Source: Armatimonadota bacterium (GTDB taxonomy: Bacteria; Armatimonadota; Fimbriimonadia; Fimbriimonadales; Fimbriimonadaceae). Taken from it: DNA of 64,000 nucleotides. The notes under the pieces were generated by a model. The model ran no database searches. It was given only the letters and a program-made list of their open reading frames with translations, and was not told where the DNA came from. Position numbers and translations under genes: made by a program. Location: contig JAFDWX010000003.1 in NCBI GenBank assembly GCA_018268255.1, forward strand, positions 1 through 64,000, in the 5' to 3' direction. This document shows positions 3,283 through 27,953 of this stretch, piece after piece; positions within the stretch are counted from its first letter, which is position 1, and each line of letters opens with the position of its first letter.

Positions 3283-3326
3283 TATGATTGCAGTCATACT
3301 GCGCGGGCCGAATCTGACTGAATAAT
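3283..3326 (+). promoter_or_regulatory. Crp/Fnr-type box and -10 of the nar operon
   Basis: The palindrome TATGAT-TGCA-GTCATA occupies 3283-3298. After 22 bp comes AATAAT at 3321-3326 (5 of 6 to TATAAT). Predicted transcription start is about 3333, leaving a roughly 20-nt leader that contains AGAAGG (3338-3343) before ATG 3353. This is one of only two boxes in the island whose operon appears to keep a leader; the other is at 13331. Confidence 0.75.
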
Positions 3327-3352
3327 ATCGGTGCGCGAGAAGGATGGCGCGC

Positions 3353-5803
3353 ATGAAACTCATGGCAACCAGACATTCCGTACCGGGTCGAGCCCCGACA
3401 GTTTCTCCCAGCGAGAAAACGCGCGTCGTGAGAACCACGGACAGCCCAAACTGTACTGGAGCGTGTGGCTGGCTTGCCACCGTTGTCGATGACGTCATCG
3501 TCGATCTCAAGCCTGCAGCAGACTATCCATGTCAAGAATACAATCCGCGAGGATGTCTTCGTGGCATGTCGATGACGCACATTATCTATGGTCCGGACCG
3601 TGTGCATAAGCCGCGAATTCGGACGGGTGAGCGCGGAGAAAACAAGTGGCGCGAGGTGGAATGGGACGAGGCTTTGGATTACATCGCGAGCCACATGTGC
3701 CGTATTCGGGATAGTCATGGGCCGGAGTCGATGCTCCTTTTCAACCAAGTTGTGGGGACAGGTTACGTTCAAAAGGGGGCGCAGGTGCGGATGGCTGCTC
3801 TGTTGGGGATGTCTTTTGCGACCGCATACGATTTCAATGGCGACATCTCCATGGGTTTCACTCAAACCGTTGGGATTGACTGCGTTGAGTGCGAGACCAA
3901 GAGTTGGGCACACTGTAGAACCGCAATTCTGTGGTCGAGTAACGTTTTTCAGACACGCATTCCCGACGCAAAATTCCTCACTACCTACGCCAAACAGAGA
4001 AACAATTGCCAGATCATCTCAATTGATCCGCGTTGCAGCCAGACTGCCAAAGGATCTGACCAGTGGTTACCCATCAACCCAGGAACGGATGGTGCCCTTG
4101 CCCTCTCGATGTGTCAGGTTATCATCGAAGCGGGGCACGTTGATTGGGAATTTCTGCAAAAGAACACAGATGTCTGCACCCTGATTCGCCAGGACAACGG
4201 TATGCGGTTGCGAGCTTCGGACGTTGGTCAGGGGACTGATGCTGAGTTCATGGTGTGGGATGAAGGCCTAGGTGGGCTCTTCAAGCTTCCAATGGAGTCG
4301 CTCAAGCTGCCCGAATCGGCCCGTTTTGCATTCAAGGGTCTTCGCGAGATCCAGGTTGCTGATGGATCGGTGATTAGTGTGGTCCCTGCTTACCAGTTGA
4401 TCGAAGAAGAGATCATGAAGCAGGATTACGTTCCAGAGCATGTCACTACGGTCTGCGACATCCCAGCAAAGGCTATTCGAGATATTGCGATCCGATTCGC
4501 CACCGAGCGGCCCAGTTCAATCATTATCGGGATGGGCATCAATCATCGCCTCCACGGGGATTTAACCATTCGATCCGTAATACTGCTGGCTACTTTGGTA
4601 GGTGCGCACGGCAAGCCCGGTGAGTCAGTTTCAATTTATTCTGGTCAACACCACTTTCGACTTGACGTATCGCCGTGGTGGTTCCCAGGCGGAAAACGGC
4701 CCAACGGCGTACCTATGCATTATTTCGTCCTTGGTCAACCTACAGGAACGATCAATCCCAAGATCAAATTTCCCAAAGCCGGGTTCAAGGCGCTCTTTGT
4801 GAGCCACGCCAATCCGCTTGTTACCGAGTTTAGCGAGCCCCTAAAAGAAGCAATCGATAATTTGGACCTGTTCGTTGTTACCGAGTTTTCAATGACGCCT
4901 ACATGTGAATATGCTGACGTCGTTCTCCCGGCTCCGACTTTTTGGGAAAAATTGGACTTGGTCGGCACGAGCTGCCATCCCTACCTCCAGATCCAGCAAC
5001 AAGTGATTCCGCCTCAATACAGCAGCCAAACAGAACTGTGGATTTGTCAGGAGTTGATAAGGCGCGTCGATCCCGAGAAGGCCAAAGAAATGGACTTTAC
5101 CGAGGAGCAAGCAATCGAAATGATGCTTGCTGGCGGTGGAAAAGAAGTCGAAGGAATCACTCTAGAGCAACTCAAAAAGGGACCGGTACGGCTCAAGGTT
5201 CATGATCCTGAATGCGGACTCGACGAACAACTCCACGAGGACAAACTCTTTCCTCCTCGAGCTTATCCGTTCGCAGAAGGCGCCCAACGCGAGTTTCTAA
5301 AGACAGGAAGAATGGAATTCTACAAGGAGGAGGACATCTACCAAAAGATGGGCGAAACCATCCCGACCTATCATTGGGCGTTTGAGCATCTTCCCAATTC
5401 ATCTCAAGAGTTTCCCCTTGCAATTGTTACGCCTCACTCAAAGTGGCGAGTGCACTCAACTCATTGCAACAATCCCCTATTACGAAATGTTAACCGTAAG
5501 CCGCTCGTGGAGATTAACCCAAAGGATGCTGCACGTCGCGGCATAAGGGATGGCGATCCGGTCGAAATTTTCAACGATTATGGGCAGTACCAGTTGTGGG
5601 CTCTCGTAACGGAGACCATCAAGCCCGGTGTTGTCTGCGTGGATCACGGTTGGTGGGATCGCTATCTAGCTTCGGGCAAGTACCACAGTGTCCACACCTA
5701 TCAAAAGATCAAGGCGACACACGAAGCTTATTACCTGCCTGCTGTCTATGCTCCTGGACAGCATTGGAAAGACACAAGGGTCGATGTCAGGAGGGTGAAC
5801 TAA
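3353..5803 (+). CDS. NarG-clade molybdopterin oxidoreductase, putative respiratory nitrate reductase catalytic subunit
   Basis: Predicted bis-MGD molybdoenzyme of 816 residues (E. coli NarG is about 1247). I chose ATG 3353 because AGAAGG sits 9 bases upstream. Collinear with NarG: VRTTDSPNCTGACGW (residues 26-40) matches the NarG FS0 region, NPRGC supplies C68, and YDFNGDIS (159-166) matches NarG YDWYCDLP, making D164 the probable Mo ligand. The C-terminal MGD-binding domain begins near TPHSKWRVHST. Oddity: the FS0 His of NarG is Asp here (D30), giving D-x3-C-x3-C-x29-C. There is no Tat or other signal peptide, so a cytoplasmic active site is likely, matching the NarK transporters. First gene of a five-gene operon with no narJ-type chaperone. 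Nitrate as substrate is inferred from clade and context; chlorate or another oxyanion is possible. Confidence 0.8.
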   Translation: MKLMATRHSVPGRAPTVSPSEKTRVVRTTDSPNCTGACGWLATVVDDVIVDLKPAADYPCQEYNPRGCLRGMSMTHIIYGPDRVHKPRIRTGERGENKWREVEWDEALDYIASHMCRIRDSHGPESMLLFNQVVGTGYVQKGAQVRMAALLGMSFATAYDFNGDISMGFTQTVGIDCVECETKSWAHCRTAILWSSNVFQTRIPDAKFLTTYAKQRNNCQIISIDPRCSQTAKGSDQWLPINPGTDGALALSMCQVIIEAGHVDWEFLQKNTDVCTLIRQDNGMRLRASDVGQGTDAEFMVWDEGLGGLFKLPMESLKLPESARFAFKGLREIQVADGSVISVVPAYQLIEEEIMKQDYVPEHVTTVCDIPAKAIRDIAIRFATERPSSIIIGMGINHRLHGDLTIRSVILLATLVGAHGKPGESVSIYSGQHHFRLDVSPWWFPGGKRPNGVPMHYFVLGQPTGTINPKIKFPKAGFKALFVSHANPLVTEFSEPLKEAIDNLDLFVVTEFSMTPTCEYADVVLPAPTFWEKLDLVGTSCHPYLQIQQQVIPPQYSSQTELWICQELIRRVDPEKAKEMDFTEEQAIEMMLAGGGKEVEGITLEQLKKGPVRLKVHDPECGLDEQLHEDKLFPPRAYPFAEGAQREFLKTGRMEFYKEEDIYQKMGETIPTYHWAFEHLPNSSQEFPLAIVTPHSKWRVHSTHCNNPLLRNVNRKPLVEINPKDAARRGIRDGDPVEIFNDYGQYQLWALVTETIKPGVVCVDHGWWDRYLASGKYHSVHTYQKIKATHEAYYLPAVYAPGQHWKDTRVDVRRVN

Positions 5804-5804
5804 G

Positions 5805-6524
5805 ATGGCTCGCTATTCGATGCTGATCGATCTCACGCGGTGCATTGGATGCGATGCTTGTACACTTGCGTGTAAGCAAGAGAATGGAACGCCTTACGAC
5901 ACGTTTTTTGCCCGGGTTCTGAATGTGGAAAGCGGGAAGTATCCAAATGTAAAGCGGATATACGTGCCAGTCCTCTGTAACCATTGTGATGATCCTGCTT
6001 GTCTCAAATCGTGCCCCAATAAGGCGATAGTGCGCCGACAAGATGGGATCGTCTTAGTGGATCAAGAGCGCTGCAAGGGCACAGGTGCCTGCGTCTCCGC
6101 TTGCCCATACGGAAACATTATTCTCCATCGTAACGAGGAAGAGTGGTACCTCGATGAGACAGAACGTTACGAAAAGGAATTTGTCAAGAAGCGCCTCAAA
6201 CAAAATGTTGCCCGCAAGTGTACTTACTGTGCCCACCGAGTCGACCAGGGATTGAACCCGGCATGCGTTGTGGCATGCCCCACTACTGCGCGTATCTTTG
6301 GCGATCTAGATGATCCAAATAGTGAAGTGTCTATCTACATTCAGGAACAAGCAGAGCAGACGGGACGCAAACCATTCCATTTACTTGAGGAGGCTGGTAC
6401 TCAACCCGCTGGATGTTACTTGGCGACAATGGCCGAGCAGGTACCTCACACGATGGGACAAACAGATGGAATTGGCGAAGCCAAAGACTATGAATCGCGG
6501 CGGACCGCAAGAGGAAGAAAATGA
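5805..6524 (+). CDS. NarH/DmsB-like four-cluster ferredoxin subunit
   Basis: 239 residues, starting 1 bp after the catalytic gene ends. Four Cys groups: CIGCDACTLAC (C13-C23), CNHCDDPACLKSC (C58-C70), CKGTGACVSAC (C90-C100) and CTYCAHRVDQGLNPACVVAC. The third has Thr93 where the second Cys should be. In NarH the equivalent position is Trp and that site binds a [3Fe-4S] cluster, so one 3Fe and three 4Fe clusters are predicted. It should wire electrons from the membrane subunits to the molybdenum subunit. It is far shorter than NarH (about 510 residues), closer to DmsB/NrfC size. Its stop overlaps the next start (ATGA). Confidence 0.85.
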   Translation: MARYSMLIDLTRCIGCDACTLACKQENGTPYDTFFARVLNVESGKYPNVKRIYVPVLCNHCDDPACLKSCPNKAIVRRQDGIVLVDQERCKGTGACVSACPYGNIILHRNEEEWYLDETERYEKEFVKKRLKQNVARKCTYCAHRVDQGLNPACVVACPTTARIFGDLDDPNSEVSIYIQEQAEQTGRKPFHLLEEAGTQPAGCYLATMAEQVPHTMGQTDGIGEAKDYESRRTARGRK

Positions 6525-7642
6525 ATTTTAAGACATTGCTTATTTTCTTGATTGTGGGAATCGCTGCAATTGGGAACTCTCAGGGACCTACCAGGAAGGA
6601 CATATTTGGTACGACTTCGTGTATCGGGTGCCACGGACAAAGTGCTATGGGAGGCTTGGGCCCGCCTCTAGCGCAAGCCAAGCTCAAACTCAAAGATTTT
6701 TCAAGCATCGTGCGTACAGGCAAAGGCATGATGCCTGCTATCAAAGAAGGCGAATTGAACGATGCTGATTTGGCAAGCATTTATACAGAAGTTCAAGCAA
6801 AACCCTGGGTTCCAGACGAAATCCCCATTGCATACAAAGTGGGGCAATTCTTGTCGCCGAAAAGTGTTTCACACATCTTTCTTGCCGCATTCTTGTTTGC
6901 TGCAATCTTCGCAATACGGGGACTTTCATATTGGTTAAAATGCGCCGCAGTGAAGGATCTATTGCCAGCCGTCGGTCAAATGGGATGGTTCAAAGCAGTA
7001 GGTACAATTCTAAAATCCTTAGTCGTAGATGGAATTTGTGTAGCATCGCTCTACCAGGCAGATAAAAAGCGATGGCTCTTACACGGGTTGTTGCTTTACG
7101 GAATGTGCGGGCTAATTCTTTCTGATGTTCTTATAGCCATTTTCAATCCTCAGCGTGGTCAACTGCCAATGACTAATCCACTTAAGCTGTTACCTGTTCT
7201 CAGTGGCTTAGCAATTGCATTAGGCGTGGTGTATGTAATGTATCGCTATAAAAAGGATGATTACATCGATAACGGAGTGACACTTGGCAAGGACTTTCTT
7301 TTCCTTAACCTACTGGTCCATGTTGTCGTGAGCGGATTCTTGGTTGTTACCCTAAAGAGATTCGGAGTTAACGATTGGGTAATGACCATTTACATGTATC
7401 ACCTGGCAGCGGTGTTCTTTCTCATAGTCACTGGACCATTTACACGTTTTCAACACATGTATGTTGTGCCCGCGCTTGCGGCTGTCACTCGGCTAACGGA
7501 AGCTGTAGTTGCTAGCGGGGTGGATCTTGGTTTCGAACGGGAGCCCTCGCCCGGCCGCCACCACAAGTCCACAAAAATTGCGGCAGATGTGTTGAAGCAT
7601 CTCGGCGAAGAAGGGCCTATCGTCATGCGCTACTACCCATAA
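6521..7642 (+). CDS. Cytochrome c / NarI-like cytochrome b fusion, membrane subunit
   Basis: 373 residues. A signal peptide or anchor (1-20) precedes a mono-heme cytochrome c domain with CIGCH at residues 34-38 and a likely Met ligand in the GMMPAI stretch. After about residue 110 there are several transmembrane helices with conserved His residues (RWLLHGLLLYG; MYHLAAVFFL). The helical pattern resembles the NarI/DsrM gamma-subunit family, which binds two b hemes. The fused cytochrome c may stand in for the missing cytochrome c1 next to the Rieske and cytochrome b genes downstream. That role is inference. The ATGA overlap with the ferredoxin gene argues for stoichiometric assembly. Confidence 0.75.
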   Translation: MNFKTLLIFLIVGIAAIGNSQGPTRKDIFGTTSCIGCHGQSAMGGLGPPLAQAKLKLKDFSSIVRTGKGMMPAIKEGELNDADLASIYTEVQAKPWVPDEIPIAYKVGQFLSPKSVSHIFLAAFLFAAIFAIRGLSYWLKCAAVKDLLPAVGQMGWFKAVGTILKSLVVDGICVASLYQADKKRWLLHGLLLYGMCGLILSDVLIAIFNPQRGQLPMTNPLKLLPVLSGLAIALGVVYVMYRYKKDDYIDNGVTLGKDFLFLNLLVHVVVSGFLVVTLKRFGVNDWVMTIYMYHLAAVFFLIVTGPFTRFQHMYVVPALAAVTRLTEAVVASGVDLGFEREPSPGRHHKSTKIAADVLKHLGEEGPIVMRYYP

Positions 7643-7653
7643 GGAATTCCATA

Positions 7654-8148
7654 ATGACTAACGACCTTAGTACCAATGACAGTATCGAAATCTCCCGTCG
7701 AAAAATGATGGGACTCGTCGTCGGCGTTATCAATCTGGGACTCATCGGCTCAATCGTTGGCCCAATGGTAGGATTTGCCACTGCACCATTGACAGTCAAA
7801 CGGAAGCAGAGATGGGTAGAGCTTATGGATGAATCCATGATCCAGCCAGGTGAAGTGAAAGAAGTCAATTACAGTATGCGGGTCGTGGATGGCTACCACG
7901 AGATCGAGCAAAAATACACTGTTTACCTGCGACGCGGAGAGGAAGATGTGATCTGCATAGATCCTGCATGTACGCACCTCGGCTGCCGAGTCAAATTCCA
8001 GTCAGAGCAACATAGGTTTGTTTGCCCGTGCCACGGAGGCGTATTTGATGACCAAGGAAACAACAAATCGGGTCCTCCTCCAAAGCCACTGGAGCGCCAT
8101 CCTGTCAAAATCGAGGCAGGGAAAATCTGGATTTCTAGAGAGGTCTAA
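7654..8148 (+). CDS. Rieske [2Fe-2S] protein of the nar operon
   Basis: 164 residues. An N-terminal Tat-like anchor (SRRKMMGLVVGVINLGL) would place the domain outside the cytoplasmic membrane. The Rieske site is complete: C106-T-H108 and C124-P-C126-H127, with C111 and C126 as the disulfide pair. It resembles QcrA-type subunits of bc/b6f complexes. It lies between the cytochrome c/b fusion and a cytochrome b gene, suggesting a quinol-oxidising bc-like module attached to the nitrate reductase. Haloarchaeal nar operons also carry a Rieske protein (NarB) and cytochrome b (NarC), which is the closest known precedent I can name. Confidence 0.9.
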   Translation: MTNDLSTNDSIEISRRKMMGLVVGVINLGLIGSIVGPMVGFATAPLTVKRKQRWVELMDESMIQPGEVKEVNYSMRVVDGYHEIEQKYTVYLRRGEEDVICIDPACTHLGCRVKFQSEQHRFVCPCHGGVFDDQGNNKSGPPPKPLERHPVKIEAGKIWISREV

Positions 8149-8151
8149 TCT

Positions 8152-9372
8152 ATGCGTCAGCAAAAGTTCCGCCCAGAAGACGCTCCGACACTTAGTCCAG
8201 AAGTAAAAGTCGATACTCCTCGTGAAGCAACAGCAGAGGAACGACTTCACATTGATAGACCTTCGCTGACTGACTGGCTCGATTTGCGACTTGGCTGGTA
8301 TGGTTTCGTCCGCAAGAATCTGGATGAGCCGATGCCCGCTGGTGTAGGTTGGTGGCAAACCTTGGGGAATCTGCTCATGACGTTGCTGATCTTCCAGTTT
8401 GTAACAGGATTCGCATTGGCAATGTACTATTCGCCGAGCCCGGAAGCAGCTCATGCTAGTGTAAAACACATTACCTACGCAGTGACTTTGGGCTCATTCA
8501 TTCGCGGATTGCATGCTTGGGGATCGAGCATCATCGTCATTACGGTTGTACTCCACACGTTACGCGTCTTCTTTTGGGGTTCTTATAAGAAGCCCCGTGA
8601 AGTTACGTGGATTATTGGTGTGATCATCTTCCAAGTGGTCTTGGGCTTCTCCTTCACCGGGTACTTGCTGCCGTGGGATCAGCGTGCATATTGGGCGACA
8701 GTTGTTGGAACTCGAATTGCTGCCACAGTTCCACTGATCGGACATGGGCTTTTGGTGTTCATTCGAGGAGGTGAAGAAGTCGGTGCGCTTACTCTCACCA
8801 GGTTCTTCTCTTTTCACGTGATGCTGCTTCCGGCGACGTTACTTGTCTTTAAGTTTCTTCACCTTTATTTAGTGCGTCGGCACCATATCGCTGGGCCGGT
8901 CGAACCTGCGAAAGGTGCGCCAGTACCGTTTTATCCCAACCAGCTCTTCAAGGATGCTATCGTTCTCTTGTTCGGAGTCGGCTTATTGATCTTCCTGGCG
9001 ATTGGATTTCCACCTGCCCTTGAGGCAATCGCAAATCCCACAGGCACAGATTTCAGCCCAAGACCTGAATGGTATTTCCTGGGACTTTACGAACTCTTGA
9101 AGATCATGCCCAGCGGATGGGAAGTGGTGGCAACAGTCATCATCCCCACTGGTATCACTATCGGAATGTTTGCGTTGCCATGGCTTGATCGGTCCAAGTC
9201 ACGGCATCCTGGCAAGCGCCAGTGGGTGATGATGATGGGAATGTTCATCATCCTGCTCATTGGCCTCATGACTCTCAAAGGGATTTTGGAGACACCGCCA
9301 GAGCACAAGGCAACGCAAGTCGCCGAAAATACGCAGTTTCATCCGGTTGAGACAGCTGCGCTGACTGAGTGA
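8152..9372 (+). CDS. bc-complex-type cytochrome b
   Basis: 406 residues and polytopic, starting 3 bp after the Rieske gene. The paired heme histidines are visible (HAWG and VLHTLRVF in one helix; FSFHVMLLP and FKFLHLYLVRRHH in another), as is the quinol-site PEWYF motif with a long C-terminal helical part, so both the b6-like and subunit-IV-like halves are present. There is no separate cytochrome c1 gene; the c-type heme of this operon is in the upstream fusion. Predicted role: oxidise menaquinol/quinol with the Rieske protein and pass electrons into the nitrate-reducing complex or onto a periplasmic acceptor. Confidence 0.9.
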   Translation: MRQQKFRPEDAPTLSPEVKVDTPREATAEERLHIDRPSLTDWLDLRLGWYGFVRKNLDEPMPAGVGWWQTLGNLLMTLLIFQFVTGFALAMYYSPSPEAAHASVKHITYAVTLGSFIRGLHAWGSSIIVITVVLHTLRVFFWGSYKKPREVTWIIGVIIFQVVLGFSFTGYLLPWDQRAYWATVVGTRIAATVPLIGHGLLVFIRGGEEVGALTLTRFFSFHVMLLPATLLVFKFLHLYLVRRHHIAGPVEPAKGAPVPFYPNQLFKDAIVLLFGVGLLIFLAIGFPPALEAIANPTGTDFSPRPEWYFLGLYELLKIMPSGWEVVATVIIPTGITIGMFALPWLDRSKSRHPGKRQWVMMMGMFIILLIGLMTLKGILETPPEHKATQVAENTQFHPVETAALTE

Positions 9373-9478: not shown

Positions 9479-10972
9479 CTAGTCGTCTGTTCGATGACGG
9501 ACCATTCGTAGAATCACCATATGCATCCACACGAGACAGAATGCGCTCATGGCTGCCAAGAACAGCCAGCAAGAGGTCCAAAGACCAGTTAGTTTTAGCA
9601 AGTACCCAAACAAAATGGGACAGAAAAATCCGCCCAAGCCGCCAATCACTCCCACCAGGCCACCCACCACACCCACGTCATGTGGAAAGTAATCCGGAAT
9701 GTGACGATAAACCGCAGCTTTGCCAACTCCCATCATGATTCCAGCGAGAAAGACGATGCCTGTGAAGACCCAAACATTTGCCTGGAAATAAACGTGAGTG
9801 ATTCCGCGTGCCAAGAGCTCCTTCTTCTTAACCTTCTGACCCACCTTAACGATAGGCTCTTGCCAGTTGCTGCGCTGAGGCCAAATGATCGAGCCCTCCG
9901 ATAGCGACGAACCGCTGGAACTGAGTCGATCTGCAAGGTCGCCCTTCGCTGTGGATGCCTTGACTGGATAAGTCTTATCATCAATTTGGATGGCAGAGGC
10001 GCCGACGCTAACCACGGTGCCCGCTCGATCTGCCATCACACCTTCTCCTGGGCTAGAAATATCCATCCGTGGCGCGATGACCAGGGCGAACAGCAAGGCA
10101 CAGCTGCTAAGCACCCAGTACATCGTGGCTCTAGCACCGAACCGGTCGCTTGCCCAGCCTCCGAGTGCTCGGATCAGCCCGCTCGGCAAGCTAAAGATGC
10201 TGGCCATGAGTCCGGCTGTAGCCAGCGACATTCCATAGACACTGAGGTAGTAGGGCACGAGCCACTGGCTTAGCGCGACGAAGGCACCGAAAACCAAGAA
10301 ATAATACACCCCAAACCGCCAGACACGCACATCCTTGAGCGGACGTAGGCGATCAGACATGCTCTTCTGGTTTGTTCCCTCAGGTTTTTTGTTGGTCGTG
10401 GTGAGTGCGAACACGATCGTCATCAGCACTAGAGCCGCGCTGTAGAGCAGTGGAAGCGTGCGCCACCCGTTGAGGTTGCGACCACCATCCGTCAAATGCT
10501 TGAGTACCAGAGGAGAGGCAAGAGTCGTGATGGCTGATCCAGCATTCCCGATGCCGAATATCCCCAACGCTGTCCCTTGCTTTTCGGCAGACCAGAACAC
10601 AGACGTATACGCGATTCCAACCGCAAATCCGGTGCCCGCTATGCCAAAAATCAAGCCGCAAACTACAAACTGCCAGAAGGTCGAGGCGAAGGAGGTCAGT
10701 GCTGCACCGGCAGCCGCGGACAGCATCACCCCAATGAAAACCGGTTTGCCTCCATAGCGATCGGAAAGAAGTCCAACCGGGAGGCGAAGAATTGAGCCGC
10801 TAAACACCGGCATACCAATGAGCCATCCCAATGCTGCCTTGTCGATGGTGAGGATGCGGTTGTCTACCAAAAATGTTGCAAGGACCCCATACATGGTCCA
10901 CACCGCAAAGCAGACTGTGAATGCAAGGGTGTTCAACGTGAGCACTTTCTTGCCCACAGAGTTGGTTACCAT
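9479..10972 (-). CDS. narK: NarK-family nitrate/nitrite transporter with an inserted soluble domain
   Basis: MFS transporter with NarK signatures: GLLSDRYGGKPVF after the second helix and a Gly-rich stretch ending KQGTALGIFGIGNAG. I place the start at ATG 10972 (497 residues), because that codon sits at the predicted transcription start set by the box at 11006-11021; a longer reading from 11062 would run through the box. Residues about 303-396 form a non-membrane insert between helices. It is beta-rich, with segments AGTVVSVG and VKVGQKVKKKELLARG that resemble a barrel-sandwich half-motif. NarK proteins normally have only short loops here. Predicted role: nitrate uptake and/or nitrite export for the cytoplasmic reductase. 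Confidence 0.85.
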   Translation of the reverse strand: MVTNSVGKKVLTLNTLAFTVCFAVWTMYGVLATFLVDNRILTIDKAALGWLIGMPVFSGSILRLPVGLLSDRYGGKPVFIGVMLSAAAGAALTSFASTFWQFVVCGLIFGIAGTGFAVGIAYTSVFWSAEKQGTALGIFGIGNAGSAITTLASPLVLKHLTDGGRNLNGWRTLPLLYSAALVLMTIVFALTTTNKKPEGTNQKSMSDRLRPLKDVRVWRFGVYYFLVFGAFVALSQWLVPYYLSVYGMSLATAGLMASIFSLPSGLIRALGGWASDRFGARATMYWVLSSCALLFALVIAPRMDISSPGEGVMADRAGTVVSVGASAIQIDDKTYPVKASTAKGDLADRLSSSGSSLSEGSIIWPQRSNWQEPIVKVGQKVKKKELLARGITHVYFQANVWVFTGIVFLAGIMMGVGKAAVYRHIPDYFPHDVGVVGGLVGVIGGLGGFFCPILFGYLLKLTGLWTSCWLFLAAMSAFCLVWMHMVILRMVRHRTDD

Positions 10973-10977: not shown

Positions 10978-11021
10978 ATAGTCTCACCCTCCGGGCTTTT
11001 TGCTCTATGACAGAGGTCATA
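10978..11021 (-). promoter_or_regulatory. Crp/Fnr-type box and -10 of the first narK
   Basis: Perfect inverted repeat TATGAC-N4-GTCATA at 11006-11021. Reading leftward, 22 bp separate it from GACTAT (10983-10978; A2, A5 and T6 of a -10). The predicted start of transcription coincides with the narK ATG at 10972, so the mRNA should be leaderless. Confidence 0.75.
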
Positions 11022-11145: not shown

Positions 11146-11865
11146 CTAGGCGAGAATTCCTCGAATGGCTTCCATATCCAGAATGGAAATCGTTCGATAA
11201 CCCGCACGTATCCACCCCTTGTTTTGCCACTTTGTGGTGGTTCGAATCACTGTCTCAACACTTGTGGACGCTATCTCGGCGAGACTCTGCCTACTAATTG
11301 GCAGGGCCTCATCGGTTTCCACGAATGGCGACCGAAACACCTCATGAACTGAGAGAAGCGCAGCCGCAAGACGAGGTTCGACTGCGCAGGTAGCCATTCC
11401 GCCCAAAAAGTCATAGCTCTGAAGAAGGCGGTGCCGTAGTTCTTCCATCGCTGACTTGTAGAGGTTCGGTTCTTTGCGCATTGCCCTTCGCCATACCGAT
11501 GTCGGTAGCTTGAGATACCATGTGGGAGTTACAGCCGAAGCCGTAAGTGCATATGGCCCTTCCGAAACTGCTGCCAAGATTCCCGCACAGGAACCAGGCC
11601 CGACAAGTTCCACTACGACTTCATGAGCATGGGGTGCTCGTCGAGCAAGGCGAATCATTCCATCCGCAACGATTGCTACGAACCGTGCCACCGTGCCGGC
11701 TGTCCACAGGATTTCCCCCCGGTCTGCATGGGCGAGATGGCAACCTTCTTCCAAAAGCAAGATTGTTTCATCGGACGCCTGCCGACAAAGCCCGCATGCC
11801 CGAATCACCACCTGAAGATCGGGCATGTGAGATCCTAACTCGTCATCTTCGAACCGGTCGTCCAT
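11146..11865 (-). CDS. Crp/Fnr-family regulator 1
   Basis: 239 residues (or 226 from ATG 11826). A cyclic-nucleotide-binding-like beta-roll is followed by the dimer helix and a C-terminal HTH with recognition helix VETVIRTTTKW, giving E-x3-R as in the family but lacking the Ser of the Fnr E-x2-S-R motif. N-terminal Cys residues occur as CGLC plus one further Cys (EEGC), and another lies in GPGSCAG. Spacing differs from Fnr, so an Fe-S sensor is possible but unproven. It lies 21 bp downstream of the second narK in the same direction and is probably co-transcribed from the box at 13331. Likely signal: nitrate, nitrite, NO or oxygen status (inference). Confidence 0.8.
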   Translation of the reverse strand: MDDRFEDDELGSHMPDLQVVIRACGLCRQASDETILLLEEGCHLAHADRGEILWTAGTVARFVAIVADGMIRLARRAPHAHEVVVELVGPGSCAGILAAVSEGPYALTASAVTPTWYLKLPTSVWRRAMRKEPNLYKSAMEELRHRLLQSYDFLGGMATCAVEPRLAAALLSVHEVFRSPFVETDEALPISRQSLAEIASTSVETVIRTTTKWQNKGWIRAGYRTISILDMEAIRGILA

Positions 11866-11886: not shown

Positions 11887-13206
11887 TCAGCAGGGTTTTT
11901 CAGCGCTCTTGCGAGCGTAGAACCACCAGTTGATCGCCAGATTGAGGACATAGAAAGCCGTTAGGCCGACAAAGAATGTGCTTGCGTTTGTCCCCTTGCC
12001 CATAGCTTTTCCAACCAAGACGCTAAAGAGGAATGGTCCGTAAGCCGCGATTGCTGAAGTCCAGCCGATGACGCCCCCAGCTTGTCGAGGCGGGAAAATC
12101 ATCGGCATCTGCTTGAATGTGGAGGCGTTGCCAATTCCGGAGAATAGGAATAGCACCAGCATTAGGCCTAAGAATCCTGGGAATTGTTCGATGGACGGCG
12201 AAGATACATAAGGCACAATCAGCACGCCCCCAACGATAAGTCCTGCTGCACTCAGCATGGTGACTTTGGCCCCACCGACCTTATCGGCAATTGGTCCAAA
12301 CAGGGCGCGCACTGCGGCTCCTATCAGTGGGCCCATAAACGCATATTTAAGCGGATCTGGTGCACCTGTAAAACCCCCGAACAACTGCTTGATCAAAAGG
12401 GGAAAGACTGCCGAAAGACCACTGAACGACCCAAAAGTCATTACGTATAGTGAGGTCATCAACCATGTGTGCTTTTCCTTGAAGATATCAAGTTGGTCCT
12501 TAAGAGTGGCTGTGACAGGAACATCTTTGAGTTTCGCCCAAGCGAGAATTGCCCCGATGAGTATGAATGGAACCCAGATGAACGACGCATTTTGAAGGAA
12601 AATCTGGGTTGTTTTCCCTTTGTTCGAAAAGTTCTGGGACGCTCCAACAAGGCTGATTCCGATGATGGCGGGGATGAGAAATTGGGCCACACTCACTCCA
12701 AAATTGCCAATGCCGGCTTGTATCCCCAGCGCAGTGCCCTGAAGTCGTTTTGGGAAAAAGTGCGAGGTGCTGGGCATAAATGAACTAAAGTTTCCGCCTC
12801 CCAACCCAGCTAAGAACGCCAGAATCATCAAGGTGCCGAAAGTGGTGCTGGATTTCATTACTGCCATGCCCCAGCCAATCGAGGGAATAACTAGAAGCAG
12901 CGTGGAGATAGCGACAACTTTCCTAGTTCCAAATATGGGGATCAAGAAGGTGTGGAGAATGCGTAGCGTTCCTGCGGCCAAGCCGGGCATTGCTGTCAGC
13001 CAAAAAAGTTGTTCTGGAGGCAGTTTGAACCCGATGCCGCCCAGCTTGACCACTATCGCGCTGACCATGAACCAGGTGGAAAAACTAAGCAGAAGACAAA
13101 AGGTGGTGATCCACAGTGTTTGCCAGGCGATTGGCTTGGCAACAGAGTTCCAAAAATCCTCGTCATTAGGACGCCAATCAGTTGTCATGCTATCGTGTTG
13201 GATCAT
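11887..13206 (-). CDS. narK: NarK-family nitrate/nitrite transporter, second copy
   Basis: 439-residue MFS protein with the NarK-type Gly-rich motif (AFLAGLGGGNFSSFMPSTS and LQGTALGIQAGIGNFG). ATG 13206 is preferred because GGGAGA lies just upstream; the longer reading to 13320 has an atypical N-terminus. This copy lacks the soluble insert of the other narK and diverges strongly from it. Two different NarK types in one cluster are common in nitrate respirers, often one nitrate/proton symporter and one nitrate/nitrite antiporter; which is which cannot be decided here. The regulatory box at 13331 lies 125 bp upstream, implying a leader of about 90 nt. Confidence 0.85.
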   Translation of the reverse strand: MIQHDSMTTDWRPNDEDFWNSVAKPIAWQTLWITTFCLLLSFSTWFMVSAIVVKLGGIGFKLPPEQLFWLTAMPGLAAGTLRILHTFLIPIFGTRKVVAISTLLLVIPSIGWGMAVMKSSTTFGTLMILAFLAGLGGGNFSSFMPSTSHFFPKRLQGTALGIQAGIGNFGVSVAQFLIPAIIGISLVGASQNFSNKGKTTQIFLQNASFIWVPFILIGAILAWAKLKDVPVTATLKDQLDIFKEKHTWLMTSLYVMTFGSFSGLSAVFPLLIKQLFGGFTGAPDPLKYAFMGPLIGAAVRALFGPIADKVGGAKVTMLSAAGLIVGGVLIVPYVSSPSIEQFPGFLGLMLVLFLFSGIGNASTFKQMPMIFPPRQAGGVIGWTSAIAAYGPFLFSVLVGKAMGKGTNASTFFVGLTAFYVLNLAINWWFYARKSAEKPC

Positions 13207-13302: not shown

Positions 13303-13346
13303 AGTTTTCTCCGCCGACACATGCTGGGAATATGATGAAAGTCATA
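13303..13346 (-). promoter_or_regulatory. Crp/Fnr-type box upstream of the second narK
   Basis: TATGAT-GAAA-GTCATA at 13331-13346. Leftward, after 22 bp, is AAAACT (13308-13303; A2, A4 and T6 of a -10). Predicted transcription start is about 13296, some 90 nt before the narK ATG. That position coincides with an ATG opening a 15-codon frame (13297-13250). Confidence 0.65.
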
Positions 13347-13452
13347 TTGCCGCAAAAAAGGGTCAAGCCTGCCATTAGACTTGCATGTTAGCTTCGTTTG
13401 TAGCGCTGGTGAGCATGCACTCTGATCAAGTATGGAAATTGCCCGGCTGAAA

Positions 13453-13496
13453 CATGATTGTCGTCATAGTTCTAGTCGTGCGGTAAATGTCACAAC
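13453..13496 (+). promoter_or_regulatory. Crp/Fnr-type box and weak -10 of the porin operon
   Basis: cATGAT-TGTC-GTCATa at 13453-13468. After 22 bp comes CACAAC (13491-13496), the weakest hexamer of the set (3 of 6). The predicted transcription start is the porin ATG at 13503. Leaderless by geometry; no Shine-Dalgarno is visible. Confidence 0.65.
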
Positions 13497-18062: not shown

Positions 18063-20242
18063 TCTGGAGATTCTGCTTTAGTAATCCGAACGCAAGCTCG
18101 CTTGTATTCAGGGATTCCGCTGATCGGGTCAAATGACCGAATCGTAAGGTTGTTTGCCGACCTTCTTCCGGGCCAGTGATAGGGGATAAAAACGGTATCC
18201 GGTCGAATGGTGCTCACAACCTTGGTCCTGAGGGTCACCTCGCCCCTGCGGCTAATGACCTTGACCCACTCCTGGTTTTCAACACCAAGTTGAGCTGCCA
18301 ATTGTGGATGGATTTCGACATAAGGCTCCGGACATAGGTCGAGAAGTCCGCCGATTCTTCGCGTTTGGGTACCGCTCAGATACTGCGAAACGACTCGTCC
18401 CGTGGTCAAGACAATTGGATAGTCCACGTCAGGCTCTTCCATCGGCGGGCGATAGGTCACGGCGTTGAATCGGGCTTTTTCATCTGGAGTTTTGAACTTC
18501 AGGTCCTCCCACAATCGAGGTGTTCCGGGATGGTCTAGGCTTGGGCAGGGCCAAAATACACCCAATTCGTTTTCAATTCGCTCGTAGGTAATCCCGAAAT
18601 AGTCCGCAGTACCACCTTTACTGGCCAGTCGAAGTTCGTTGAATATGTCCTCAGAACACTTGAAATGGCTGAAGAACTTATCCCGTCCAAGGCGACGGGC
18701 TAACTCCAGGATTATGTCCGTATCCGCCTTGGCTTCTCCCGGAGGATCGACCGCTTTGTTGATCTTGATGACCCGCCCCTCGGCACTGGTACTCGTTCCC
18801 TCTTCCTCTTCGTGCAGCGATCCAGCCATCACAATGTCGGCATGGTGAGCCGTTTCGTTCAAAAAGAAGTCGATGGCGGTGTAATGCTCCAATTTCTCCA
18901 ACGCCTCTCGAGTGAAGTTGGAATCGGGTAGCGACACTAACGGGTTAAAGCAGATGGAAATCAGAGCTTTGATTTGTCCGCTGTGAATCAGTTGGACTAT
19001 TTCTGGAGCAGTGTGTCCTTTACCCGGAAGTTCTTCGTCGGTGCAACCCCACACTGAGCAGATGTAGGCACGATGGTCAGGATTGGAAATGTCTCGGTTT
19101 CCAGGTAGCTGATCGCACTTATGGCCATGTTCTCGCCCGCCCTGTCCATTTCCCTGGCCCGTGATCGTGCCATATCCACACCCTTTTCGCCCGATCCTGC
19201 CTGTTGCAAGCACCAAATTAATGCATGACACGACGTTATCCACGCCCTTGGAACTATGTTCGATGCCTCTGGCATGCATCAAAAAGCTGGTCTTCGCCTC
19301 GCCCCACATCTGGCCTGCGCGCACGATATCTGCAACTTGGACACCGCTGATCCGGCTGGCGTCTTCAAGAGAGAGCGCAAGAGCGGCCGCCTTGGTTTCT
19401 TCCCAGCCGCAAGTGTGCTCATGGATAAATGGCTCGTTCGCATAGCCCTGCTCGATCACGACTCGCAGGATCCCGAGCAACAGCGCTGAATCGGTACCGG
19501 GCAGAACCGGTAGGTGCAGGTCACAGGTCCGAGCAATCGGAGTTACTCGCGGATCGATGACGATGAGCTTGGCACCTCGGTCCCTCGCGCGCCAGATGTA
19601 ATCCGTTGTGATGGGTGAGCACTCGGCAACATTAGTACCGACCAACATGATGACCTCTGCATGAACGATATCATCCCAAGAGTTCGATGCACGGTCTAAT
19701 CCAAACGCCTTCTTGTTTCCGGCACCCGCGCTGACCATGCACAGGCGTCCGTTGTAGTCCAAATTTGCTGTTTGCAGCCCTAGCCTGGCGAATTTGCCCA
19801 TGAGGTAGCTCTTCTCGTTAGTGAGAGAAACTCCAGACAAGAGCGCTACGGAGTCCTTGCCAAAACGACTCTGGATGTCCTGCACTGCACGCACAGTGGT
19901 GGCAAATGCCTCTTCCCAAGTAATTTGAACAAACCCCTTGCCAGGCACGCTTCGGAGGGGGTGAAGAAGCCTATCCGGATGGCCGCCTTGCAGATACCGT
20001 TTGACCCCCTTTGGACACAGCTTGCCCTTGTTGAACGGGAATTCCTCCCATGGTTCAAAGCCTATGACCGCGTTTTTTTTGACCTTGAGTTGAATTCCAC
20101 ATTGCATCCCGCAAAAGCAGCAGTGGGTTTTTACGAGCCTGTCGGGTGCGTCGCGGTCGAGCCAACCTCCTGGAGGCACATATGCAGGGTGCGGCCCAAA
20201 TTCCTCGACGATCTGCTCAATAGGAACTGGTAGCTTCGCCAT
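18059..20242 (-). CDS. nasA: NasA/NarB-type cytoplasmic nitrate reductase (bis-MGD, Cys-ligated Mo)
   Basis: 727 residues. The N-terminal [4Fe-4S] motif is C41-x2-C44-x3-C48-x27-C76 (LCPKG). The Mo ligand is C168 in NGRLCMVSA, matching the R-x-C-M-x-S-A context of Nas/Nap enzymes and lacking the His that follows the ligand in formate dehydrogenases. The C-terminal MGD domain begins near [21 protein letters not shown]. No Tat signal, so cytoplasmic. It lacks the C-terminal extra Fe-S domain of some NasA proteins. The box at 20277 puts it in the same regulon as the NarG-type enzyme, so it is probably not purely assimilatory; no nitrite reductase accompanies it. Transcribed with the hemerythrin-like gene. 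Confidence 0.8.
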
Positions 20243-20248: not shown

Positions 20249-20292
20249 ATCTTGGCTGAAGCTATCGTCAGCAAACGATGATAAGCGTCATA
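20249..20292 (-). promoter_or_regulatory. Crp/Fnr-type box and -10 of the NasA-type gene
   Basis: gATGAT-AAGC-GTCATa at 20277-20292, sharing the same core as the moaA box. Leftward, 22 bp away, is CAAGAT (20254-20249; A2, A5 and T6). The predicted transcription start is the ATG at 20242. The box overlaps the last codon of the upstream TauE-like gene. Confidence 0.7.
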
Positions 20293-23847: not shown

Positions 23848-24746
23848 GGATGGGGAGTCCCTTTGAGCATATCGATAAAGTGAAGTAGGTTAGGCATGAG
23901 TGCGTTCACTGCATCGACACATGCCCTAGGACTCCCAGGGATCGCAACAACAAGCGTATTTCCGATGAGGCCCGCCACTGGACGAGCGAGCATTGCGGTT
24001 GGAACCCGATCTTGGCTGTAAGATTGAAACGCTGAGACGACCCCTGGCAACGACCGTTCAAGCAACGGTGTAACGGCCTCAAATGTGATATCTCGAGGAC
24101 CAATTCCCGTGCCCCCCGTGACGAAAACCATGTCAATTCCTGCCGTGACCCTGCTTGTGATCGCGTCGCGGAGCTTCTCCACGTCATCTGCAACAATGGC
24201 GACTTCAACTTCTAACGCCCCGTTTGCTTGCAGAACTTCTTGGAGGATGGGGCCGCTTTGGTCAGCATAGGTCCCAGTGCTGGCGCGGTCGGATACTACG
24301 ATAACCTTGGCAAGCCAACCGGATCGGTGGGGAAGATCAGACTTGCCGCCACGCTTTTCCAGCAGATGAATCGAGCCAATTTCCATTGACTCATCGATCA
24401 TCTTCAGCATGTCGTATAGGGTGATCACAGATGCAGCTGCCGCAGTAATCGCTTCCATTTCCACTCCGGTCTTGGCAACTGAAGTAATCGACACTTCAAC
24501 GATGATACGGTCGGGTTCAAAACTAAAGTCCACTCCCACGAATTCAATCGGGATGTTGTGGCAATACGGAATCCACTCTGTCGTTTTCTTCGCCGCTTGT
24601 ACCGCTGCGACTCGAGCTACTGGAACAGGGTCGCCTTTGGGTGTGTCTCCAGCCTGCACCCGTGCCACAGTTTCGGCCGATGCGATCAGCACTGCTTGAG
24701 CCCGCGCAGTTCTCAAGGTTGAAAACTTGTGTGAAATGTCTCTCAT
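23844..24746 (-). CDS. MoaC-MogA/MoaB fusion
   Basis: 300 residues from ATG 24746, which overlaps the moaA stop (ATGA); a longer reading to 24815 lies inside moaA and is unlikely. Residues 1-135 are MoaC (cyclic pyranopterin monophosphate synthase): GDTPKGDPVPVARVAAV, the PYCHN active-site region and KTGVEMEAITAAAASVITLYD. Residues about 142-300 are a MogA/MoaB-type molybdopterin adenylyltransferase: VSDRASTGTYADQSGP, FVTGGTGIGPRDIT and AIPGSPRA. It joins an early step (after MoaA) and a late step (before MoeA). MoaC-MogA/MoaB fusions occur elsewhere but are uncommon. Confidence 0.9.
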   Translation of the reverse strand: MRDISHKFSTLRTARAQAVLIASAETVARVQAGDTPKGDPVPVARVAAVQAAKKTTEWIPYCHNIPIEFVGVDFSFEPDRIIVEVSITSVAKTGVEMEAITAAAASVITLYDMLKMIDESMEIGSIHLLEKRGGKSDLPHRSGWLAKVIVVSDRASTGTYADQSGPILQEVLQANGALEVEVAIVADDVEKLRDAITSRVTAGIDMVFVTGGTGIGPRDITFEAVTPLLERSLPGVVSAFQSYSQDRVPTAMLARPVAGLIGNTLVVAIPGSPRACVDAVNALMPNLLHFIDMLKGTPHP

Positions 24747-25789
24747 CCGCCGATTTGCACCATCGTTAAGTGATCGCGCTGTGCCCAATCTCGCATCGGT
24801 GGATGGCCCGCCCACTTACCTGCGAGGCAGGTTGCAACCGCCTGTTCAAGTTCGTCATCAGTACCGTTGTATCGTAGAATATCGCGCAGGGATACCGCTG
24901 GAGGCAGAAAGAGACAGGATTTTAGCTCGCCATCGGCAGTAAGTCTCAGTCGGCTGCATCCTCCGCAGAAGCTCTCGGTGACACTTGAAACAAATGCAAT
25001 TCTCCCTGCTGATCCAGGTATTGAATACTCACGAGCGACATCCGATGGATATCCATCGAGGGCTTGTAATTGAAATTCCTTCCCGATAATCTCTCGAATC
25101 TTGGACGAACTTAGTACGCTGCAACTCGACCAATTATTGTTCAAGAAAGGCATAAATTCAATAAATCGAACGGTAATGCACTTTGATGACGCAAAGTGAA
25201 CAAAATCGATAATTTCATCATCGTTAACCCCTGGCATCATCACGACATTGACCTTGGTCGGTATATCATGTGCTTGCGAAAATTCAATACCTTTCAACAC
25301 AAGTTCTAATTCCGATCTTCTTGTAATAGCTTCAAATCGGTCTGCTCTTAAAGTATCTAAGCTAACGTTGATTGAGCTCAGACCAGCCTCCTTTAGGAAA
25401 GGGGCGTCTTTCGAAAGTCGACTGCCATTTGTGGTTAGTGCAAGTTCCTCAATAGCTGGGTTGGTCCTTAACTCTCTAATGAGATCGATGTACCCATGCC
25501 GTATTGTGGGCTCACCGCCAGTGATGCGCAACTTCCGAACTCCCTTCTTCGCAAAGAAGGTCACTAGTTGAACGATTTCTTCAAAAGTAAGGATCTCGTC
25601 TCTCGGTTTCCACTTGACTCCCTTCTCCGGCATACAATAGGTACACCTAAAGTTGCAGCGATCAGTGATCGAGATCCTGAGATAGTCGTGAAACCGTCCG
25701 AAGCGATCCACAAGGCAGGTCTTCGACGCACCAGATTGCGGGTCTGTCGCCTGAGTTGGAGGACATTCTGCTGTGGAACCGACTCGCAC
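24743..25789 (-). CDS. moaA: MoaA, GTP 3',8-cyclase (radical SAM)
   Basis: 348 residues from GTG 25789. The longer reading to 25945 would translate the regulatory box itself (25823-25838), so I prefer the GTG that sits at the predicted transcription start. The radical-SAM motif is C45-x3-C49-x2-C52 (DRCNFRCTYCMP), followed by KLRITGGEPTIR. The second cluster is C-x2-C-x13-C (SFCGGCSRLRLTADGELKSC), and the protein ends in Gly-Gly as MoaA does. It performs the first step of molybdopterin synthesis with the MoaC domain encoded next. First gene of the six-gene cofactor operon. Confidence 0.92.
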   Translation of the reverse strand: MRVGSTAECPPTQATDPQSGASKTCLVDRFGRFHDYLRISITDRCNFRCTYCMPEKGVKWKPRDEILTFEEIVQLVTFFAKKGVRKLRITGGEPTIRHGYIDLIRELRTNPAIEELALTTNGSRLSKDAPFLKEAGLSSINVSLDTLRADRFEAITRRSELELVLKGIEFSQAHDIPTKVNVVMMPGVNDDEIIDFVHFASSKCITVRFIEFMPFLNNNWSSCSVLSSSKIREIIGKEFQLQALDGYPSDVAREYSIPGSAGRIAFVSSVTESFCGGCSRLRLTADGELKSCLFLPPAVSLRDILRYNGTDDELEQAVATCLAGKWAGHPPMRDWAQRDHLTMVQIGG

Positions 25790-25794: not shown

Positions 25795-25838
25795 ATTTTG
25801 GACTGCGCGCGGAATTCAGCAACATGATAAGCGTCATA
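25795..25838 (-). promoter_or_regulatory. Crp/Fnr-type box and -10 of the cofactor operon
   Basis: cATGAT-AAGC-GTCATa at 25823-25838. Leftward, after 22 bp, is CAAAAT (25800-25795, 4 of 6). The predicted transcription start is at GTG 25789. This places molybdenum-cofactor synthesis under the same control as the reductases. Confidence 0.75.
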
Positions 25839-25905
25839 TTGTCGTCGGAAGTTATTGCGGGTATTTTGCCAACTCCGGGCAATCCTGGTTCCAAGCCCAA
25901 CACCT

Positions 25906-25949
25906 TATGATTAGGATCATAGTTTGTTAACCTGGTGGTGTTCAATATT
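25906..25949 (+). promoter_or_regulatory. Crp/Fnr-type box and -10 of the NnrS-like gene
   Basis: TATGAT-TAGG-ATCATA at 25906-25921, a perfect 6+6 palindrome. After 22 bp comes AATATT (25944-25949, 4 of 6). The predicted start is 25956, 2 nt before the ATG at 25958. It is back-to-back with the moaA promoter, 67 bp separating the two boxes. Confidence 0.75.
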
Positions 25950-25957: not shown

Positions 25958-27331
25958 ATGCAATATCGACAAAGGGACCTTGTTCCAATCCCTGTGCGAC
26001 CTTCCGTGACATCGAGCTCTCTTCCAAAATCCCGAGCTGAGACACGAGTTTACAAACCATTTTTTGTTGCCGGTATTGTTACTGTTTTGACTGTGGGTTG
26101 CCTGTTGGGTGCATTTGCACTCTTTGGGATATCAGTCAAAGCAAACTACCTTGAATCAAGTTGGAGCCCATACGTGCTGGCCCATGCTAATTCGCAACTG
26201 TTCGGGTGGGTCGGGTTCTTTATCATGGGATTTGCGTTGCAGCAACACGGCACGACGCGAGAACGATCCAACCAATTCCACCGTTTGGCCCATTGGACTT
26301 TGGGATTGATGGGCGCTGGGATCGTTTTGAGGTTTTTTGCTGAGCCGGCTGCTCAGGTTGACTCAGGAAGGTGGGTGTGGCTTGGAGTTGTTGCCGGTGT
26401 GCTGCAGGCTATCTCCGCTGGACTCTTCCTCTATAATTCTGGTGCGAATCGGTTTCCGAAAGGCGAGCCATTGACTTGGCCAACTGCATTTGTTCTAAGT
26501 TCTTGTGCGCTGCTCATGCTTGTGGCTCTGGCGGAACCCTATGTTTTCCTGATGAGCCATCAGCGATCTCCGGAATCCTCCATCATGTTTGTGGCTGAGT
26601 GGTTCTCTCCCCTCCGCGATATCCAATTTCTGGGCTTCGTGGCAATGATGATCTTCGGGGTCGCTGCGAGCAAGTTTCCCGGATGTCTGGGATTTCGTGC
26701 TGCGCACAAAGGCTGGGGGCTGGCAGCATTCGGCCTCTGGATCACTGGCTTGATTACGCGTGTTTTGGGTTGGGTTCTGTTTTTCAGGGGACGATTGGAA
26801 CCTGGAACCGATTTCCCTTACCGGTTGGGAGGCTTCATGCTTCTCTGCGGGGCAGCCTGTATGATCCAGAGCCTAGGAGTATTCGAGCCGCCCCGTGCTG
26901 CAAACCCTAGCCAGAAGTTCATAAAGTCAGCGTTTGGATGGCTACTGATCGCAGGACTCCTGCTGGCATTCGAGACTGTCCATCTCAACAAGATCGCCGC
27001 GCCCTTCTCTCACGCCTACACAGGCGCGATCCGACATGCGGTAACAGTCGGCTTTATTTCGCAGATGATTATCGGCGTGAGCTACCATCTCGTCACCCGG
27101 ATGCTCATGCTCAACGAAAATCGCATCCCACAGCTATGGAGCGTGTTTTGGCTGCTGAATATCGGCAATTGCTGCCGGGTTGCACTTGAAGTATGGACTG
27201 ATTACACCAGGACTGCTTTTGCACCGATGGGCTTCACTGGCTTCGTGGAACTCATCGGTTTAGGGATTTGGGCGTGGGTAATGATCGGCTACATCAGAAC
27301 TCGTAGCATCAGCCTTGCTGCATCTTGCTAA
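25958..27331 (+). CDS. NnrS-like heme/copper membrane protein
   Basis: 457 residues, about 12 transmembrane helices. The first helices (FFVAGIVTVLTVGCLLGAFALFG, then YVLAHANSQLFGWVGFFIMGFALQQH) and the His residues near helix ends (for instance HAYTGAIRHAVTVGF and SYHLVTRM) fit the NnrS family. NnrS proteins are regulated with nitrate/nitrite respiration and lessen nitrosative stress when NO forms. The box upstream agrees with that. Converges with mobA, leaving 3 bp. Confidence 0.75.
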   Translation: MQYRQRDLVPIPVRPSVTSSSLPKSRAETRVYKPFFVAGIVTVLTVGCLLGAFALFGISVKANYLESSWSPYVLAHANSQLFGWVGFFIMGFALQQHGTTRERSNQFHRLAHWTLGLMGAGIVLRFFAEPAAQVDSGRWVWLGVVAGVLQAISAGLFLYNSGANRFPKGEPLTWPTAFVLSSCALLMLVALAEPYVFLMSHQRSPESSIMFVAEWFSPLRDIQFLGFVAMMIFGVAASKFPGCLGFRAAHKGWGLAAFGLWITGLITRVLGWVLFFRGRLEPGTDFPYRLGGFMLLCGAACMIQSLGVFEPPRAANPSQKFIKSAFGWLLIAGLLLAFETVHLNKIAAPFSHAYTGAIRHAVTVGFISQMIIGVSYHLVTRMLMLNENRIPQLWSVFWLLNIGNCCRVALEVWTDYTRTAFAPMGFTGFVELIGLGIWAWVMIGYIRTRSISLAASC

Positions 27332-27334
27332 TAT

Positions 27335-27910
27335 TCATAGTTCTTCCAGAAGCAGGATCCTTAGGTCTTCGCGCGTGTTGACACCCATCACCGATCTCGG
27401 ATCAATTCCGCGTTCCACAAGTGTTGTTTCGGTCGCGATCCTGGCTTGCAAGCAGTCGATCCACTCCATCACACGGCTAAGGCCCGAGTTACGAAGGTGG
27501 CTCCAAGCTGAACTCCGATAGAGTGCGCATAGGGGTTGGAGCTTTCCCGAAATGGACGGAATAACGGCCTCGCCTTCGCCGAGAATCGACAAGAACTTGT
27601 CAGGAGTTTTAGGATCGAACAGCGGCACATCGCAGGAAAGCACGAAAACGAGATCTCGTGCGGGTTGAAACTTCTTGAGGGCTACTATCGGTCCTTGGAA
27701 ATCGCCCTCGTCTTGCAAGAAATCAAACCCAGAAATAGGATCACGGCCCAGTACTGTCACGGGCCAGTTCGCTTCTGAGAGTCCTCTTGCTAGCACGGGA
27801 CCCAGGGGCCCGTTCCCGGCGTCGAGAGAAGCTTTGTCGGTTCCCATTCTGCGACTTGCTCCTCCGGTAAGAAGCACAGCCTCGCGTCCATTCTTGGGCG
27901 ATTCACTCAT
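27335..27910 (-). CDS. mobA: MobA-type molybdenum cofactor guanylyltransferase
   Basis: 191 residues from ATG 27910 (an alternative ATG at 27937 would put the box at 27910-27925 inside the gene). The nucleotide-binding motif LLTGGASRRMGTDKASL is clear, as are GPIVAL and VFVLSCDVPLF of the NTP-transferase fold. It attaches GMP to molybdopterin to make the MGD required by both molybdoenzymes here, completing the cofactor pathway. The start codon overlaps the last base of the Crp/Fnr-type box that serves the opposite gene, so mobA expression may be affected by occupancy of that site. Confidence 0.85.
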   Translation of the reverse strand: MSESPKNGREAVLLTGGASRRMGTDKASLDAGNGPLGPVLARGLSEANWPVTVLGRDPISGFDFLQDEGDFQGPIVALKKFQPARDLVFVLSCDVPLFDPKTPDKFLSILGEGEAVIPSISGKLQPLCALYRSSAWSHLRNSGLSRVMEWIDCLQARIATETTLVERGIDPRSVMGVNTREDLRILLLEEL

Positions 27911-27953
27911 ATGATCGGTGTCATAGCGGCTGTCCATGCGCAACATCCATACT
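27910..27953 (+). promoter_or_regulatory. Crp/Fnr-type box and -10 of the AhpD-like/NarI-like operon
   Basis: TATGAT-CGGT-GTCATA at 27910-27925. After 22 bp comes CATACT (27948-27953, 4 of 6). The predicted start is 27960, 1 nt before ATG 27961. The sequence before the ATG (CTAAAAT) has no Shine-Dalgarno, in keeping with a leaderless mRNA. Confidence 0.75.

Follow-up and report, generated by a model that had tools for sequence, protein, structure and literature searches.

The first 64,000 nucleotides of contig JAFDWX010000003.1 (assembly GCA_018268255.1, from an Armatimonadota bacterium of the class Fimbriimonadia; this whole stretch is called the window below) carry a nitrate island that encodes a narG-like molybdopterin oxidoreductase with its partners, two NarK-type transporters, an outer-membrane channel, three Crp/Fnr-type regulators (R1, R2, and R3), a NasC/FdhF-like oxidoreductase, molybdenum cofactor (MoCo) genes, an NnrS-like protein, and a NarI/QmoC-like cytochrome. 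A preliminary description had listed nine TATGAY-N4-RTCATA palindromes in this island, each exactly 22 bp from a −10-like hexamer. All nine boxes are found where it placed them, five of them exact and the other four with a single mismatch. Read toward the adjacent gene, every hexamer is separated from its box by exactly 22 bp; for the boxes at 11006, 13331, 20277, and 25823 the hexamer is on the minus strand, facing a minus-strand gene, a matter on which that description was silent. The boxes, hexamers, and genes are arranged as follows.

3283–3298, plus: box 1, exact; serves the narG-like operon, whose orthologous gene in relatives also has a box upstream
3321–3326, plus: −10-like AATAAT, 22 bp past box 1
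3344–9372, plus: narG-like operon, leadered, start codon 45 nt past box 1; encodes the molybdopterin oxidoreductase (3344–5803), an Fe-S protein, a cytochrome c/membrane subunit, a Rieske protein, and a cytochrome b
9479–10972, minus: NarK-type transporter, leaderless type, ATG 33 nt past box 2
10978–10983, minus: −10-like GACTAT, 22 bp from box 2
11006–11021, minus: box 2, exact; serves the NarK-like transporter
11146–11865, minus: Crp/Fnr regulator R1, directly downstream of the box-3 gene; cysteines 24, 27, 42, and 93
11887–13206, minus: second NarK-type transporter, with candidate in-frame ATGs at 13206 and 13188, hence leadered
13303–13308, minus: −10-like AAAACT, 22 bp from box 3
13331–13346, minus: box 3, exact; serves the second NarK operon and R1
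13453–13468, plus: box 4, one mismatch (CATGAT); serves the porin-R2-R3 unit
13491–13496, plus: −10-like CACAAC, the weakest of the nine, 22 bp past box 4
13503–14678, plus: Alginate_exp-type outer-membrane protein, ATG 34 nt past box 4
14697–15410, plus: Crp/Fnr regulator R2
15525–16232, plus: Crp/Fnr regulator R3
16228–16243, plus: box 5, one mismatch (TATGAG), overlapping the end of R3
16266–16271, plus: −10-like GACAAT, 22 bp past box 5
16278–17386, plus: 4Fe-4S dicluster protein and Rieske protein, GTG start 34 nt past box 5
18059–20242, minus: NasC/FdhF-like molybdopterin oxidoreductase, ATG 34 nt past box 6
20249–20254, minus: −10-like CAAGAT, 22 bp from box 6
20277–20292, minus: box 6, one mismatch (GATGAT)
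24743–25789, minus: moaA (MoCo synthesis), GTG 33 nt past box 7, heading a run of MoCo genes to ~20288
25795–25800, minus: −10-like CAAAAT, 22 bp from box 7
25823–25838, minus: box 7, one mismatch (CATGAT)
25906–25921, plus: box 8, exact
25944–25949, plus: −10-like AATATT, 22 bp past box 8
25958–27331, plus: NnrS-like membrane protein (weak Pfam match), ATG 36 nt past box 8
27910–27925, plus: box 9, exact
27948–27953, plus: −10-like CATACT, 22 bp past box 9
27961–29318, plus: CMD-family protein (ATG 35 nt past box 9) and NarI/QmoC-like membrane cytochrome

In the divergent gene pairs at 13331/13453 (13331–13468) and 25823/25906 (25823–25921), each direction has one box and none is shared. A search of the window found no RNA element or tRNA at the box sites, and that explanation of the boxes was dropped.

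With up to two mismatches allowed, the motif has 13 matches in the window (3.9 expected), a number reached by 0 of 100 shuffles. With up to one mismatch, it has 12 matches in the 3.19-Mb genome, nine of them inside this 24.6-kb segment (binomial P ~2 × 10−17), contrary to the equal frequency at random genome sites that the preliminary description had named as refuting it. The hexamers share the pattern xAxxxT, which is present at the gene-oriented offset of 22 in eight of the nine boxes, the one without it being 13453 (CACAAC); any other offset has it in at most three, the opposite side in none, and none of 5,000 sets of nine random points gave eight xAxxxT at any offset.

Both elements recur in the relatives. 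Genes like narG are found in 32 of the 113 class genomes, and the narG islands of 23 relatives contain 73 motif sites (at most one mismatch) versus 1 for the reversed control. The box consensus TATGAY-N4-RTCATA holds across the class, bearing out the remark that its half-site differs from those of FNR and CRP. Among 145 oriented flanks, with both box directions taken blindly, xAxxAT peaks at offsets 21 (36 cases) and 22 (15 cases), with ~2 at other offsets. A box-to-−10 spacing of 21–22 bp, not strictly 22, is thus the family trait: the gap said to be invariant is so for the nine boxes of the window, but across the family it is 21 or 22, with 21 the commoner. In a logo built from 75 divergent sites, the dyad is followed directly by a preferred G, further on by a −10 of the form cAaaAT, and then by the start codon; because selection of the sites required xAxxxT and a nearby start, the logo is unbiased only in the −35 region and the box flanks. 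In that region it shows no −35 element, with at most 0.25 bit per position except for the G directly after the box, in agreement with the claim that no −35 is needed or seen.

The boxes are also held at a set distance from translation starts, a feature that the preliminary description omitted. In seven of the nine cases (11006, 13453, 16228, 20277, 25823, 25906, and 27910), the start codon of a long reading frame lies 33–36 nt past the box. This distance is conserved in relatives, whose islands show an ATG peak at 32–34 nt and in whose orthologues the start codon and its distance from the box are unchanged (e.g., GTG at 34 nt in many genomes). With a spacing of 33 nt, 41.5 bp separate the box centre from the first base of the start codon, and transcription starting there would leave the box at the textbook class II position. 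An mRNA beginning in this way would be expected to have no Shine-Dalgarno (SD) sequence, and among divergent box genes starting 32–36 nt past the box, SD-like tetramers occur in 9 of 82 (11%; control inside genes 11.8%), as against 36 of the 63 box genes that start at least 42 nt past it (P = 2.4 × 10−9). Most box-driven mRNAs are therefore probably leaderless. Elsewhere in the genome, leaderless starts are not obviously the rule: sampled genes show a small −10 excess ~12 nt before the ATG and a modest SD peak, which leaves room for some leaderless starts but does not make them dominant.

As to the protein that reads the box, R1, R2, and R3 each have a cNMP_binding domain (PF00027) and an HTH_Crp domain (PF13545), placing them in the Crp/Fnr superfamily, and PDB sequence matches give Crp/Fnr proteins as the best solved relatives of R3. 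Named Crp/Fnr subfamilies were considered for R1–R3 and rejected, every NCBIfam score being far below its cutoff. When R3 and R1 are used as queries, their clade is detected in 58–60 of the 113 class genomes and in 1 of the 178 genomes elsewhere in the phylum. Of 60 genomes with the clade, 54 have at least two exact boxes, as against 3 of 53 without it (P = 1.6 × 10−21), and genomes that have the regulator and no narG have a mean of 3.2 boxes. A same-genus genome is matched in the R1 search alone, and a second genome has only an R3-type gene; both have boxes, so that R1-type and R3-type regulators probably read the same box.

The recognition helix of the clade reads T-T-V-E-[ST]-x-I-R, with E198 and R202 in 72 of 72 members and I201 in 71 of 72, and thus has the Glu and Arg that contact the TGA core. 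At the position matching Ile201, FNR has Ser and CRP has Gly, and Ile201 is a candidate determinant for reading A at the third base. CRP contacts cyclic AMP (cAMP) through a Glu and an Arg; in an alignment with the Crp-type structure 3r6s, these positions in R3 are Leu89 (Glu) and Cys98/Pro99 (Arg). The clade has Val197 at CRP position 180 in place of Arg180, a residue that has been tied to G at the third base, other residues there being tied to T (Rodionov et al., 2005; PMC1274295); in the proteins of that study non-Arg at 180 pairs with T3, and here Val pairs with A3. No conserved FNR cysteine signature was found in the clade, where no Cys column exceeds 49% and R3 has a single Cys. Three of four members of the R1 subclade have cysteines 24, 27, 42, and 93, a pattern unlike that of FNR, and R2 and R3 have no such cluster at the N-terminus. 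An Fe-S or redox sensor is a possible role for R1, and R2 and R3 may respond to something else.

The genes behind the boxes point to nitrate, nitrite, and nitric oxide (NO). First genes past boxes with a −10 fall into larger groups, named after the window's own orthologues (44 molybdopterin oxidoreductases, 33 NarK, 21 outer-membrane channels, 21 NnrS-like, 20 Fe-S, 19 MoaA, and 16 CMD), and smaller ones (six NapC/NrfH-like cytochromes, six truncated globins, four Crp/Fnr regulators, and three MobA-like). A further exact box, the tenth of the genome's sites to make sense, is on another contig (C4:89645) and lies upstream of a multihaem cytochrome c. Each of the genes for R1, R2, and R3 immediately follows a box-driven gene, an arrangement suggestive of positive feedback; for R1, autoregulation is predicted.

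The regulon formed by these sites is real, conserved, and specific to the lineage, and its geometry is that of class II (site centre near −41.5 from the predicted transcription start, a gap of 21–22 bp, and no −35). We consider it very probable that the boxes are operators of a Fimbriimonadia Crp/Fnr subfamily that brings about class II activation of a mostly leaderless nitrate regulon. In the mechanism we propose, R1, R2, and R3 would be the local members of a subfamily nearly confined to the class. A regulator dimer would bind TATGAY-N4-RTCATA, centred at ~−41.5, and recruit RNA polymerase to a weak −10 element 21–22 bp further on, taking the place of a −35 contact. Transcription at most promoters would then start at or a few bases from the start codon, giving an mRNA without leader or SD sequence. 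The genes so regulated would serve nitrate uptake, molybdopterin oxidoreductases and their electron carriers, and MoCo synthesis, joined in relatives by globin and Nrf-like cytochromes, and the inducing signal is probably nitrate, nitrite, NO, or low oxygen. Class II activation of the Crp/Fnr type without a −35, as proposed in the preliminary description, is the best reading of the genomic clustering, the conservation, the co-occurrence with the clade, and the recognition helix; it needs extending to mRNAs that mostly look leaderless and to a gap of 21–22 bp family-wide.

Several observations weigh against this interpretation. The −10 hexamers are weak, agreeing well only at positions 2 and 6, and CACAAC is poor; their degeneracy, with the strand picked box by box, would favour chance palindromes whose hexamers were hand-picked by eye. 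That explanation is refuted by the genome-wide and cross-genome counts, the shuffles, and the random-point sets, and its probability is close to nil. It should be noted that related promoters are not fully independent evidence, that start codons are predictions, and that the leaderless set used for the logo and the SD test was chosen partly by xAxxxT at 21/22. Leaderlessness is moreover not universal in the regulon, the narG-like (45 nt) and second narK promoters being leadered. The 33–36 nt spacing might instead reflect short 5′ leaders of a few bases, given that the start is deduced from a weak −10 and that 25906 (36 nt) and 27910 (35 nt) leave room for one to three extra bases; there would be no space for an SD either way, the SD-like frequency equals that of the control, and the distinction from true leaderless transcripts, which we regard as the likelier case, is a matter of degree.

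The match between regulator and box is also imperfect: three genomes without a detected clade regulator have two or three exact boxes (one of them with as many control matches), and six regulator-bearing genomes have fewer than two. The latter would suit another DNA-binding protein reading the box, with R1–R3 merely travelling with the island. Box number nevertheless follows the regulator even without narG, the base-contacting Glu and Arg are invariant, and N4-spaced TGA…TCA dyads are typical of Crp/Fnr proteins, so that another reader is very unlikely. If the boxes are true Crp/Fnr-type sites, they could still be repressor operators at which the dimer blocks polymerase until a signal releases it: the palindrome and the clade alone do not tell activator from repressor, some family members repress, and Thermus DnrT has been described as both (PMC5748679). 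Against repression stand a box centre ~41.5 bp upstream of the predicted start, the absence of a −35 in between, and a spacing held to 1 bp. Repressor sites are usually variable in position and overlap the −10 or the start, and we judge this role unlikely. On the activator interpretation, the little-studied Fimbriimonadia appear to switch on nitrate-respiration genes through their own branch of Crp/Fnr activators.

Known members of the family resemble this system in part. E. coli FNR and Pseudomonas DNR (TTGAT-N4-ATCAA) likewise combine a Crp/Fnr fold and an N4 dyad with activation of nitrate or denitrification genes; the clade differs in its half-site (TATGAY, not TTGAT), in having no conserved FNR Cys signature, and in an Ile for the Ser of FNR, and together with scores below the NCBIfam cutoff this sets it apart from FNR proper. 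With E. coli CRP and Desulfovibrio HcpR (TGTGA-N6-TCACA) it shares the dyad spacing (TATGA-N6-TCATA) and the class II position near −41.5, but its third base is A, not G, Arg180 is absent, and the cAMP-contacting Glu and Arg are replaced, so that it is not CRP proper. HcpR1 (TTGAC-N4-GTCAA), HcpR2 (GTAAC-N4-GTTAC), and NnrR (TTGcg-N4-cgCAA) are further Crp/Fnr branches that are lineage-specific and read operators of their own at nitrogen-oxide genes (PMC1274295), none of which has A as its third base next to an intact TGA; by operator (TTGAT, TTGcg, TTGAC, TGTGA, and GTAAC versus TATGAY), the clade belongs to none of DNR, NnrR, and HcpR. In Thermus, several Crp/Fnr-type or other factors (DnrS/DnrT and NsrR-Th) are likewise encoded in a nitrate/nitrite respiration island, and the paper describing them marks ribosome binding sites (PMC5748679); the distance of the NsrR-Th site, CTTGACCNNGGTCATGG, to the start codon varies (−50 to −73) among activated promoters, unlike the fixed spacing here.

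TATGAY-N4-RTCATA is absent from the Crp/Fnr motifs catalogued in PMC1274295, relative to which it appears to be a previously unlisted operator, adding a class to the Crp/Fnr recognition code. A literature search on leaderless and class II Crp-type promoters and on Armatimonadota regulons found no description of such a regulon, which would provide a concrete code for how nitrate respiration is regulated in a phylum of which few members have been cultured. Since most of its mRNAs would have no leader, the position of the activator and the start of translation may be under a joint constraint, making this a natural case of class II geometry tied to the start codon. More tentatively, and with the odds somewhat against it, three paralogues with different sensors (one possibly of a new four-Cys type) may all act on one box, an operator of their own subfamily with A3 probably read via the recognition-helix Ile, and drive a nitrate regulon of leaderless mRNAs in which activator site and start codon are locked together.

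The narG-like enzyme, which its neighbour genes suggest reduces nitrate, is 819 aa long and scores well below the NarG and DMSO-II cutoffs. In an unusual layout, its gene lies in one operon with those for a Rieske protein and a cytochrome b, and the operon may encode a distinct molybdoenzyme-bc complex. A plasmid (mobile) origin of the gene was discarded, plasmid matches having only 32% identity. In two genomes of one genus the narG-like match has one in-frame TGA, possibly a sequencing error, a broken gene, or simply the stop that ends the match. A Fimbriimonadia-type narG island (83% identity), boxes included, is present in a record under the title Methanoregulaceae archaeon, which is probably mislabelled or a mixed bin. 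Relatives whose islands have no narG-like gene retain, under the same box, genes for NarK, the Fe-S protein, and the NasC/FdhF-like oxidoreductase, and the products of 18059–20242 and 16278–17386 may form a second nitrate-reducing complex.

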